Assembly (NCBI RefSeq): GCF_010091925.1
Contig: NZ_WVID01000008.1
Location: 1-64,000 of the forward strand
Origin: Nostoc sp. B(2019)
GTDB lineage: Bacteria; Cyanobacteriota; Cyanobacteriia; Cyanobacteriales; Nostocaceae
Direction: 5' to 3'
DNA: 64,000 nt
A program made the position numbers and the translations under genes. Under the pieces are notes generated by a model. The model made no database searches, had not been told where the DNA came from, and saw only the letters and a program-made list of their open reading frames with translations. Shown here one piece after another: positions 59,197 to 64,000 of the stretch. Numbering within the stretch: the stretch's first letter is position 1; every line of letters begins with the position of its first letter.

Positions 59197-59630
59197 TTTT
59201 TTGTGGGGTACAGCAGATGATCTCGGTCTAACCAAACAATGTAGAAAATCTCGTCAATAAAGAACCCGTGAACTCTACCGTGTTCATTTGAGGAGAGTGA
59301 AAACTGATATGGTGTATCAACTAATTGTTCTTCGTTTGGCAAACTAAATCCGCTCTCGCTGGTATCTTCCCACTTTATGGGATGACATCTGAGGGTACTG
59401 CTACGATTCACTAACAACTCTTGAGCCGTTAGGCTAGATAGAGCTTTTAACCGATCAAGCAAGGTTAGCCAGTAAATTACTTCTTTTTCGCTACAAGAAA
59501 ACTTGCTGTTACTATCCTGATAGTATTTAAACGAAAAGCTGATACCTTGAAATGGCTTCAGCTTTGTTGGTTTAATACTTGATGTGCCGACTTTAGCAAC
59601 GTCAGTCTTTTTAATCCTTTTCTTCGGCAC
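59193..59630 (-). CDS. Candidate toxin partner of a Panacea (DUF4065) antitoxin
   Basis: 145 aa. A basic N-terminus (MPKKRIKKTDVAKV) is followed by an alpha/beta body: ISFSFKYYQDSNSKFSCSEK, IYWLTLLDRLKALSSLTAQE, RCHPIKWEDTSESGF and a conserved-looking C-terminal hairpin RVHGFFIDEIFYIVWLDRDH. I do not recognise a toxin family. Its start overlaps the end of the Panacea gene by 20 bases, the arrangement of toxin-antitoxin pairs in which Panacea domains neutralise many unrelated toxins. The stop overlaps the end of the alcohol dehydrogenase gene. Confidence 0.7.
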   Translation of the reverse strand: MPKKRIKKTDVAKVGTSSIKPTKLKPFQGISFSFKYYQDSNSKFSCSEKEVIYWLTLLDRLKALSSLTAQELLVNRSSTLRCHPIKWEDTSESGFSLPNEEQLVDTPYQFSLSSNEHGRVHGFFIDEIFYIVWLDRDHLLYPTKN

Positions 59631-60063
59631 GAGATCCGTAATACTCCTTCATCCACTCCTTCTTAATAACTTCGTTGGAAGGTGCATCAGGTGGTAGATT
59701 TCCTCTAGCCCAATTCCAGGGTGCTTCAGCATGAGTCATCTGCTCTAGTTCATAAGCATCGCAGGCAAAGTACTCTTGTGCAACCTCATCCAGAAACTCT
59801 TGAACCTCTTGGTTTAATTCCGGGTTAGCATCCTCTAAAATTGGTTGCCATCCATAAAGCTTGTACTTCTGGTACAACGCAGGTATTACGGGGCCATGTA
59901 TCCAGGCTTGAAAATCCTCTTGGAACAGAGGAGTATCATATAGTGCGAGATGCCAAGCTTGAGCATAATATACAAGCTTTTGAAGCTTGAGATTACTTAT
60001 AAAAGAGCCTGTTTCATTTGCTAACCAAATAAAGTAATCTGCTATGTTAAAACATGACAGCAC
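59611..60063 (-). CDS. Panacea-domain (DUF4065) protein, antitoxin-type
   Basis: 150 aa from GTG 60063 (reading MLSCFNIADYFIWLA), chosen because AAGGGGG lies 8-9 bases upstream; a GTG three codons earlier abuts that site. Panacea/SocA-like features: NLKLQKLVYYAQAWHLALYD, the FQEDFQAWIHGPVIPALY block and the C-terminal MTHAEAPWNWARGNLPPDAP. The domain is known as a promiscuous antitoxin in bacteria and phages. Together with the overlapping downstream gene it forms a two-gene unit. Confidence 0.85.
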   Translation of the reverse strand: MLSCFNIADYFIWLANETGSFISNLKLQKLVYYAQAWHLALYDTPLFQEDFQAWIHGPVIPALYQKYKLYGWQPILEDANPELNQEVQEFLDEVAQEYFACDAYELEQMTHAEAPWNWARGNLPPDAPSNEVIKKEWMKEYYGSRAEEKD

Positions 60064-60289
60064 TACAACCACCCCCTTCAGTCTGTTACAGAATACATTA
60101 ACTTATAGAGCTATCACGGGAATAACTATAAAAAATTTTCGACATCTTATAGTTTAATTGTACTAGCTTAAAGATGAATGAGAACCCCGATTTCGTATGT
60201 TGTGTCACTTTAAATAATCTTGCTGAAAAACGGGAAAACTATGATTACCTCCATTAGGGGGAAGTTTCATACAAGTCCCGAATCGGAAA

Positions 60290-61328: not shown

Positions 61329-61612
61329 TCCTCAAGCGTAACCCAGATTATGGTACATAGGGATGCCGTTGACTGCTACTATTGTGTCGGCCATGGATTG
61401 TGGTAAAAACGCTACATCATCATACCCTCATCTCCAAGGCGATCGCTCTTATTCAGCAGGACTTACGCAAACAATAGCCAAAACCCTTATTTTGAAGTAG
61501 AGGCAATTCATGAATTGCCTCTACAGCCTGTAGTCTTGCGTAAGTCCTATTCAGCTTGCTAAAAAGTTTCTCAACCACCTAATCGCCAAATCTGATTTTA
61601 GCGCCAAAGATT
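61329..61612. other. Intergenic region before the CRISPR array
   Basis: Contains the MITE at 61458-61548 and otherwise nothing recognisable. No cas gene and no AT-rich leader-like tract are seen on this side of the array. Confidence 0.55.
61458..61548. mobile_element. Small MITE (91 bp) with AGGACTTACGCA ends and 7-bp target duplication
   Basis: AGGACTTACGCA (61458-61469) and TGCGTAAGTCCT (61537-61548) are perfect 12-bp terminal inverted repeats. ATTCAGC flanks the element on both sides (61451-61457 and 61549-61555). Inside is a perfect 28-bp palindrome (61497-61524, half-site GTAGAGGCAATTCA). Same ends as the element at 50439. Confidence 0.85.
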
Positions 61613-61649
61613 ATTTCAATCCCTAATAGGGATTTTGATTAATTGGAAC
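61613..61649 (-). CRISPR. Lone terminal CRISPR repeat with one changed end base
   Basis: Identical to the array repeat except that the first base on the plus strand is A, not G. On the minus strand this alters the last base of the GAAAC end. A changed repeat is expected at the leader-distal end of an array. It is separated from the next repeat by 377 bp containing a gene. Confidence 0.9.
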
Positions 61650-61675
61650 ACTTTCCGCTTTCTTTGGGGATTTAA

Positions 61676-61999
61676 TCATTGACTCTCCATTGGATCTTCA
61701 CGCCCAATGCCGAGCGATCGCAGTTGTGCTTTAATATCCTCTGGATCGGTTCCACAGTAATAATATTCTTTGCTGCGGAGATCGGCTAAGTAGTATCCCG
61801 GCTTTCCACCGTTGATCCGAAATAATTCTACAGCAACCTCCTCTTTTGTTGTGCCGAACATAAATTCAATATCGCCGCTTTCATTCGGCAGATTTAATGG
61901 GTTATAAAAACCTTTACTTCTAATAAAATGCCAGTAAGACCTTTCAGGTGTGATTTTACGATCAATGATTCGGTATCTAATGGGGTGAATTATTGACAT
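61676..61999 (-). CDS. 107-aa protein encoded between CRISPR repeats, unknown
   Basis: 107 aa from ATG 61999 (MSIIHPIRYRIIDRKITPER) to TGA. Mixed alpha/beta; the centre IEFMFGTTKEEVAVELFRIN and the segment GGKPGYYLADLRSKEYYYCG look like a conserved cyanobacterial family whose role I do not know. The gene is on the minus strand, the likely direction of array transcription, with 26 bases to the lone repeat and 27 to the next one. No good ribosome-binding site is visible. It is not a recognised Cas protein. Confidence 0.75.
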   Translation of the reverse strand: MSIIHPIRYRIIDRKITPERSYWHFIRSKGFYNPLNLPNESGDIEFMFGTTKEEVAVELFRINGGKPGYYLADLRSKEYYYCGTDPEDIKAQLRSLGIGREDPMESQ

Positions 62000-62026
62000 A
62001 ACTGTGTTTCACTTGAGCTAAAATTT

Positions 62027-64000
62027 GTTTCAATCCCTAATAGGGATTTTGATTAATTGGAACTCTAGTTAACTGGAGGGTGTGATAGTTTAGTGATTAG
62101 TATCTGTTTCAATCCCTAATAGGGATTTTGATTAATTGGAACCTTGATCGCCTCCAAGTTGAGCGTTTTGCGATTGCTGGTAATGGTTTCAATCCCTAAT
62201 AGGGATTTTGATTAATTGGAACCAGAAAAGCTCTGCGCTAATAGCAAACCTTGTTCGCTGGGCATTTGTTTCAATCCCTAATAGGGATTTTGATTAATTG
62301 GAACAATACATGGCTCACACAAGCCAACACACCAACTAAGTTTCAATCCCTAATAGGGATTTTGATTAATTGGAACAGCAATTCACAGAGGAAGTAGAAA
62401 GAGGCTTCACGTTTCAATCCCTAATAGGGATTTTGATTAATTGGAACAGGATCACTACTTCTTACTACGTAATTATTTCTTTGTTTCAATCCCTAATAGG
62501 GATTTTGATTAATTGGAACGCGACGGGCGCAAGCGAAATGAGCGATGTAAGTGTTTCAATCCCTAATAGGGATTTTGATTAATTGGAACATTTCCTCGGT
62601 GATGATGCACACCCTCCCCAGTGCTTTGTTTCAATCCCTAATAGGGATTTTGATTAATTGGAACGCCACAAAAATGAAGGAACAGAATCAATCATAGGTT
62701 TCAATCCCTAATAGGGATTTTGATTAATTGGAACAAGACGGGATTGCCGCTGGGCATAAAAGTTTGAATGTTTCAATCCCTAATAGGGATTTTGATTAAT
62801 TGGAACCAGCGACAGCCGCGGGTGAAAGAGAAATCAGTAACCTTATGTTTCAATCCCTAATAGGGATTTTGATTAATTGGAACCAATATTGAAAACAGGT
62901 TGCCCTGTTGAATTCTGAGTTTCAATCCCTAATAGGGATTTTGATTAATTGGAACAATCAAACTGACCTAGTCAATAACCTTCAGTTTTTCGTTTCAATC
63001 CCTAATAGGGATTTTGATTAATTGGAACATAACTGTAAATACCCACTGCCATAAGGCTTTACGGGTTTCAATCCCTAATAGGGATTTTGATTAATTGGAA
63101 CTTTATGAAAAGACTCTTACTCCCACTGAAAGAGCTGTTTCAATCCCTAATAGGGATTTTGATTAATTGGAACATAAATTAATAATCCCGCGCAACCACT
63201 TACTCATGTTTCAATCCCTAATAGGGATTTTGATTAATTGGAACCTGAAACTATGCGTGCTACAGCCAAAAATCCCGTTTCAATCCCTAATAGGGATTTT
63301 GATTAATTGGAACGGCGTGACCGCTGACTTCTTGAATTGTTCGCAGTGGGTTTCAATCCCTAATAGGGATTTTGATTAATTGGAACTTGAGTAATGTCAG
63401 CAACCCATAACAAACTCGAGTTTCAATCCCTAATAGGGATTTTGATTAATTGGAACTTCTTTGGCTTCACCTTCATGTTCAAACGCCTCTGTTTCAATCC
63501 CTAATAGGGATTTTGATTAATTGGAACACTTAAACGAATTCCGCCCGGATCTTGTGGTTATTGTTTCAATCCCTAATAGGGATTTTGATTAATTGGAACT
63601 TGGTATTCACCAATTCCCTTGATCGTGCTTTTGTAAGTTTCAATCCCTAATAGGGATTTTGATTAATTGGAACAATGTTAAAGGCATACATACCCCCGTA
63701 AATTTAATGTTTCAATCCCTAATAGGGATTTTGATTAATTGGAACTACATACCCCCGTAAATTTAATGACACACGGCATGACAGTTTCAATCCCTAATAG
63801 GGATTTTGATTAATTGGAACTGGTACGAAATTTACCCATTCAAATCGCAGTAACTCGTTTCAATCCCTAATAGGGATTTTGATTAATTGGAACATGTAGC
63901 CATGGCATCCGTATTTCCTGCCTATGGTTTCAATCCCTAATAGGGATTTTGATTAATTGGAACTAATACCATCCATCCGCAAAACAGGCTCCTATAGTAT
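62027..64000 (-). CRISPR. CRISPR array: 27 repeats of 37 bp, continues or ends beyond the window
   Basis: 27 identical 37-bp repeats from 62027 to 63963, plus-strand ends GTTTCAATCCC and TTAATTGGAAC, with an internal palindrome AATCCCTA/TAGGGATT. There are 26 complete spacers of 32-45 bp; the three at the left end (62064-62105, 62143-62185, 62223-62267) are the longest at 42-45. Read on the minus strand the repeat ends ATTGAAAC, the usual 5'-handle of type I-A/I-D/III crRNAs, so transcription is inferred to run right to left with the leader past 64000. The last 37 bases are a spacer or leader start. No cas genes lie in the window, so subtype is not determinable. Confidence 0.97.

Follow-up and report, generated by a model that had tools for sequence, protein, structure and literature searches.

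The window, the 64,000-nt stretch of Nostoc sp. B(2019) analysed here (contig NZ_WVID01000008.1, positions 1 to 64,000), ends within a CRISPR array whose last spacer slot is filled by a gene. This array is part of a type I-D CRISPR-Cas locus: cas2, cas1d, cas4, cas6, csc1, csc2 and csc3/cas10d lie beyond its far end on the minus strand, all seven above the NCBIfam cut-offs. In total it contains 67 repeats and extends past the window end to C98:66800. The terminal repeat and the repeat next to it, both 37 bp long, are 377 bp apart, while the remaining 65 spacers are 32-45 nt long (mean 35.9). The features at this end of the array are:

61613..61649, minus strand: terminal CRISPR repeat, in the crRNA sense GTTCC...GATTGAAAT, with the last base changed
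61650..62026, minus strand: insert filling the last spacer slot, 377 bp of plasmid-type DNA running from repeat border to repeat border
61650..61675, minus strand: 3' tail of the insert, ending inside a sequence that in plasmid pn2 runs on into a repeat-like element
61676..61999, minus strand (stop included): 107-aa ORF belonging to a gene family of cyanobacterial plasmids and prophages; no named domain
61991..62026, minus strand: the 5' 36 nt of the insert in the crRNA sense, the would-be guide part of a crRNA, covering the start codon of the ORF
62027..62063, minus strand: CRISPR repeat without mismatches, bordering the insert on its leader side
62027..63963, minus strand: in-window part of the type I-D array, which continues to C98:66800 with the cas genes beyond

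The changed base of the terminal repeat is its only mismatch in 37 positions and is the outer one. We take the minus strand as that of the crRNA because the repeat, read on this strand, ends in ATTGAAAC, and therefore the ORF lies in the crRNA sense, in the slot farthest from the leader. The insert holds a single ATG-started ORF with an intact frame, covering 324 of the 377 bp and leaving margins of 26 bp (61650-61675) and 27 bp (62000-62026). This is not a chance ORF, given this coverage, homologues in 28 of 100 genomes and 98.1% identity to a plasmid gene. A consensus scan of 61400-62200 found neither promoter-like nor terminator-like sites. The initial annotation had described the two repeats, the gap, the 107-codon minus-strand ORF and its margins, and all these coordinates were reproduced. 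Its proposal that the gene follows the transcription direction of the array is backed by the repeat ending on the minus strand and by the cas operon beyond the far end; its view that the gene at the oldest end is not debris is likewise supported.

Some further observations concern the surroundings. Two neighbouring spacers of the array (63674-63708 and 63746-63783) have 22 nt in common, as if taken from overlapping stretches of one target, and spacers 35 and 37 counted from the leader, beyond the window, have 20 nt in common. The genome has a second array with a variant of the same repeat (G000:C23:32108-34160). An antitoxin-like SocA/Panacea-domain gene (59611-60072) lies beside a 145-aa ORF, 1.5 kb from the array end.

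The insert is plasmid DNA. Plasmid pn2 of Nostoc sp. UHCC 0926 encodes a protein 98.1% identical to the ORF product, and at the DNA level bases 2-377 of the insert match pn2 at 98.4%. Other close relatives outside arrays are found in Nostoc sp. JL33 (96%) and CHAB 5836 (94%), where a small acidic ORF is followed by a G/C-rich hairpin and then by the family gene. Between the window gene and pn2 there are two synonymous and one non-synonymous codon differences and one added codon, too few to judge selection after capture. The insert resembles a canonical spacer in that it sits exactly between two repeats and matches foreign DNA over its full length, and it is classed as an oversize variant and not as an ordinary spacer because of its 377 nt.

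Both edges fall on repeat borders. On the 5' side, homology to CHAB 5836 and JL33 starts at the first base past the repeat, and the first 36 nt of the insert are identical (36/36) in CHAB 5836, with GTT just before. GTT precedes the edge in two of the three donors, CHAB 5836 and JL33; in pn2, the closest donor, an extra AATT blurs the edge, so that ATT or AAT precedes it instead. On the 3' side, homology to pn2 reaches the last base before the terminal repeat, and there is one shared base (G) at this junction. PMC10212523 gives GTN as the type I-D PAM, with spacers of ~35 nt, and describes the PAM end as joined at the repeat-spacer junction; by our own reading, the PAM end becomes the 5' end of the spacer. 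The GTT in two of the three donors fits this PAM.

Ordinary spacers were also used to look at the PAM. A search of 2133 spacers against the collected DNA gave six rows, of which three lay inside arrays and were dropped. The three remaining protospacers are all in pn2, with 5' flanks GTC, GCC and GCT, i.e., one GTN and two non-GTN. A spacer of the sister species G001 matches pn2 within a UvrD-helicase gene (L165:11572-11606, 94%, GTC at its 5' side), and one spacer of the window array matches the transposase gene region of pn2 (flank GCC). From these two matches, pn2-like plasmids look like CRISPR targets in the genus.

The gene family is a dispersed, multi-copy plasmid/prophage gene family. 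Counting this genome in both, matches occur in 28 of 100 relatives and in 43 of 388 genomes of the order, with up to 18 per genome, some of them fragments. Copies are also found behind a terminase-like or a strawberry-notch gene; the next paralogue in the window genome is 52% identical. A phage origin was considered and rejected: the family has no match in 50,697 phage records against ten in 72,556 plasmid records, and in IMG/VR six pattern matches gave four loci. The four IMG/VR contigs that carry the family gene are L161, L162, L163 and L164.

Homology between close copies is often lost near the gene. In 29 copy pairs with at least 90% DNA identity it is lost at most 43 bp downstream of the match in 20 pairs, being kept farther downstream in the other nine, and at most 60 bp upstream in 11, the upstream zone being where the family hairpin lies. 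This indicates that the gene moves readily. Conserved cassette ends were sought among 163 copies and rejected: although many copies end close to the stop codon on the 3' side, the two exactly delimited inserts (the second is described below) cannot be fitted to one common end.

The 107-aa product has no match among the families of Pfam, NCBIfam and PHROGs (E 1, 0.01 and 0.1), and comparison of its model (pLDDT 86.3) with the PDB gave no clear structural match (Foldseek, none at E 0.001; VIA, best Z 3.1), so that neither family nor fold could be assigned. The same profile and structure searches gave no evidence for the anti-CRISPR activity that the initial annotation had considered. The small acidic ORF of the donors has no Pfam or PHROG match; it is present in six of 60 genomes, in two of these only at E about 0.01, and has no match in the window genome.

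The orthologous array was compared in other genomes of the genus. In G001 it contains no gene and has a small insertion in the terminal repeat; in G002 it also contains no gene, and a normal last repeat is followed by the common trailer. In G004, ~1.3 kb of other sequence separates the array from the common flank. In G003, where the array has the same neighbouring 122-aa gene and trailer sequence, the last slot holds a 375-bp insert with another member of the family, 46% identical to the window protein and in the same direction. Its 3' edge is exact at the terminal repeat against two donors in G002 (81% and 79% identical). The 5' edge includes a hairpin, the repeat next to it is one base short, and in the best hand alignment the donor has GTT before the edge. 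The two inserts are cut differently: that of the window starts 27 bp before the ATG and stops 26 bp past the stop codon, that of G003 starts 59 bp before and stops 1 bp past. Between the G003 gene and donor L207, dN is 0.114 and dS 0.93, and most of this divergence may predate capture. No spacers common to genomes of the genus were found at E 1e-4 (220 spacers). G003 is a second, independent case in the same genus.

These comparisons bear on the origins named in the initial annotation. Its idea of a relic of two fused arrays does not hold, as the insert is plasmid DNA and the orthologous array is geneless in two relatives and carries a different gene in a third. Its cassette inserted into a spacer is better described as a cassette that is itself the spacer, because the edges fall on repeat borders.

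There are further cases. Trichormus NMC-1 has a 42%-identical gene flanked by its final two repeats, which both carry the same variant bases. The orthologous array of Anabaena catenula FACHB-362 has ~990 bp between the last standard and the terminal repeat, with three ORFs: a short ORF without a database match, which we take to be of ribbon-helix-helix type from its look, an acidic ORF and the family gene. The family genes of these two strains differ by one synonymous and two non-synonymous codons, too few to judge selection, and the ORFs listed next to the two arrays included no cas genes. One copy in G039 starts 29 bp past the terminal repeat of a I-D array; a second one there is convergent, 197 bp from a second array, and a copy in Rivularia MS3 is convergent, 175-185 bp from an array. 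From the repeat directions, all these cases lie at the trailer end. The four sense-strand cases (the window, G003, A. catenula/Trichormus and one G039 copy) are all at the old end of the array and all from the same family.

How strongly the family is tied to arrays was evaluated on 163 unique copies drawn from 255 loci, in which only identical sequences were collapsed and common descent was otherwise uncorrected. Seven copies are located at array ends and one more has an array at a distance of 1.4 kb; the other 155 have no array within 1.5 kb of flanks (shorter at contig ends). Six of the seven are at most 200 bp from an array of at least three repeats, and A. catenula is counted as the seventh by its terminal repeat; L092 enters these counts through its terminal repeat, with 652 bp to its array proper. 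Five further true arrays lie 200-2500 bp from copies, and four repeats judged not to be CRISPR (L050, L056, L080 and L262) were dropped. Given an array within 2.5 kb, distances of at most 200 bp are over-represented (P 0.0009 when the window is left out and A. catenula/Trichormus enter as one case).

As controls, 130 loci with HicA, XisH or ParE genes of relatives were used, none of which has an array in its 1.5-2.5 kb flanks. These are the best-scoring hits of 60 relatives plus 40 picked by hand from the same hit lists, a non-random set from genomes that are only partly those of the family copies. The Fisher test against these controls is a weak one: 7/163 against 0/130 gives P 0.016; without the window (6/162) P is 0.028, and with A. 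catenula/Trichormus also counted once (5/161) it is 0.050. An array link of the family is therefore likely, not proven, and most copies are without one. The array-linked role that the initial annotation had considered can only be presumed.

To place the insert among other long gaps, 66 array regions were surveyed: 59 of the 60 fetched cas1d regions, six regions of this genus (two in this genome) and one of G039. There are 15 gaps of 61-2999 bp. Two hold family genes, four hold transposase-like ORFs (L186:8345-9172, L310, L312 and L319) and two hold ORFs between two arrays (L295 and L282), presumably cobS- or cas6-like. Four last slots of 94-200 bp and two stretches of 265 and 346 bp have no notable ORF, and one stretch has 740 bp. 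The latter (L315:12564-13302, I-D array of G202) contains two ORFs in the crRNA sense, which from their motifs we take to be a YefM/Phd-like and Txe/YoeB-like pair, and four ordinary spacers separate it from the trailer end. Long last slots are not rare. In the arrays of the 59 other I-D cas1 regions no family gene was found, the one fragmentary hit (L282) being about 10 kb from the array. Repeat-bordered plasmid DNA with a whole gene is seen only for this family in the survey, in which donors were sought only for family inserts. The G003 array itself also has a 265-bp gap without a notable ORF (L186:7614-7878), and its transposase-bearing element (L186:8345-9172) is inserted in a repeat.

We suggest, with a probability of about 0.55, that the 377-bp insert is an over-long prespacer from a pn2-like plasmid that was joined by the I-D adaptation proteins and kept at the old end of the array. 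A fragment of the plasmid would have been cut beside the GTT motif just behind the hairpin, where a break beside the gene could supply the prespacer end. Cas1-Cas2-Cas4 would then have joined it between two repeats without trimming it to ~35 nt. The insert now occupies the oldest slot, as it would if the array had retained the gene but shed its older spacers, or if the terminal repeat had been the insertion site.

Transcription of the insert probably occurs only within the pre-crRNA, because it lies in the crRNA sense and the scan revealed no separate promoter for it. Any expression would then depend on co-transcription with the array and on Cas6. Cuts by Cas6 at the repeat before the insert and at the terminal repeat after it would yield a crRNA-like RNA of ~414 nt, starting with ATTGAAAC and containing the whole ORF. 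Through the first 36 nt of the insert, this RNA would direct Cascade to the gene copy on the plasmid, at its start codon. The host may also make use of the 107-aa protein.

Untrimmed uptake by Cas1-Cas2-Cas4 is favoured by the edges that fall on repeat borders (both for the window insert, one for that of G003), by the GTT in two of three donors and by the presence of I-D adaptation genes. Against it stand the usual spacer length of ~35 nt, the 5' edge in pn2 without GTT and the two ordinary protospacers, of only three, without GTN. The position also speaks against it: new spacers are added at the leader, but all close cases sit at the trailer, which requires either the loss of all spacers that predate the gene or an insertion at the trailer itself. 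It is also hard to see how the ~990 bp of A. catenula with three ORFs could be one spacer, and random capture does not explain the recurrence of one family. A plasmid fragment might instead have entered a broken array through ordinary end-joining or repeat-mediated recombination, with no part played by the Cas adaptation proteins. The trailer position, the long insert and the single shared base at the 3' junction agree with this, and other arrays do contain long non-spacer DNA. Such joining would have no reason to hit repeat borders twice (at both window edges and at the G003 3' edge), and we find it rather unlikely. Alternatively, the gene could be a small mobile unit with its own way of insertion, for example behind hairpins, with the CRISPR repeats at array ends as one of its targets. 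The homology loss near the gene, which upstream falls at the hairpin, and the seven array-end copies agree with this, as does the hairpin of the window repeat, which occupies the place of the family's own hairpin elsewhere. Yet there is no transposase, the one ORF matches no family, the two exact inserts have no common ends, that of G003 carries its own hairpin, no target duplication besides the repeats is seen and nine of the 29 pairs keep homology farther downstream; mobility of this kind is an unlikely explanation.

Two other readings are much weaker. That the lone repeat is left from a second array, with the gene an old chromosomal resident between the two, has a parallel in the ORFs between two arrays at L295 and L282. 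The plasmid nature of the segment and the same trailer without the window gene in G001, G002 and G003 make it very improbable, and it appears already refuted unless all three relatives have lost or replaced the gene. The genome is a draft in 109 contigs, so a plasmid read might have been wrongly joined into the array. This is scarcely credible, as the genome has no second copy as a source, the insert has its own differences from every donor, and the same kind of arrangement is present in the G003 assembly and in Trichormus/A. catenula. Uptake of an over-long prespacer is the reading that we prefer.

Compared to known systems, the insert shares with a canonical I-D spacer its origin from a mobile genetic element, its place between repeats beside I-D cas genes and the GTT of two donors, and differs by its length, by the whole sense ORF and by the last slot. 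IS insertions likewise lengthen arrays with foreign DNA, but the window insert has no transposase and its edges are on repeat borders. Integron gene cassettes are mobile one-ORF units of unknown function next to hairpins. The family gene is also a one-ORF unit that moves and lies beside a hairpin, although its edges vary between copies. The L315 pair of G202 likewise consists of accessory genes of a I-D array, read in the crRNA sense and close to its trailer end, but with two genes in 740 bp. In the CRISPR-regulated toxin-antitoxin system CreTA, as described in abstracts, a gene adjoins a changed repeat of a type I array, as here; there the toxin CreT is an RNA, and the guide CreA comes from ectopic repeats that lie outside arrays, while the window has a conserved protein gene within the array and no toxin shown. 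Titles and abstract openings, with few subscription papers among them, contain no report of a whole gene taken up as a spacer or of 375-nt spacers, and a term search of PMC8390005 for long protospacers returned no passage.

A plasmid gene as an oversize spacer is a real, recurrent and odd arrangement, and the proposed mechanism of its capture is probable. It can be speculated, as one joint reading to which we give little credence, that I-D arrays are occasional gene-capture platforms: whole plasmid genes would be taken up as giant spacers, useful ones kept at the trailer by selection, the RNAs released by Cas6 would act as messenger and, at the same time, as guide against the plasmid, and the 107-aa protein would help the host to handle the targeted plasmid, e.g., as an antidote on plasmid loss.

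In the usual view, a ruler within the Cas1-Cas2 complex sets the length of spacers. A repeat-bordered insert of 377 nt, and a second one of 375 nt in a sister species, would imply that this ruler is not infallible and that its faulty products can persist. Were the gene expressed, the array would encode proteins in addition to guides, and Cas6 would act as the processing enzyme. The position at the old end and the same family in four sense-strand cases make selection testable. These cases suggest that whole genes can at times be taken up and retained by CRISPR arrays.
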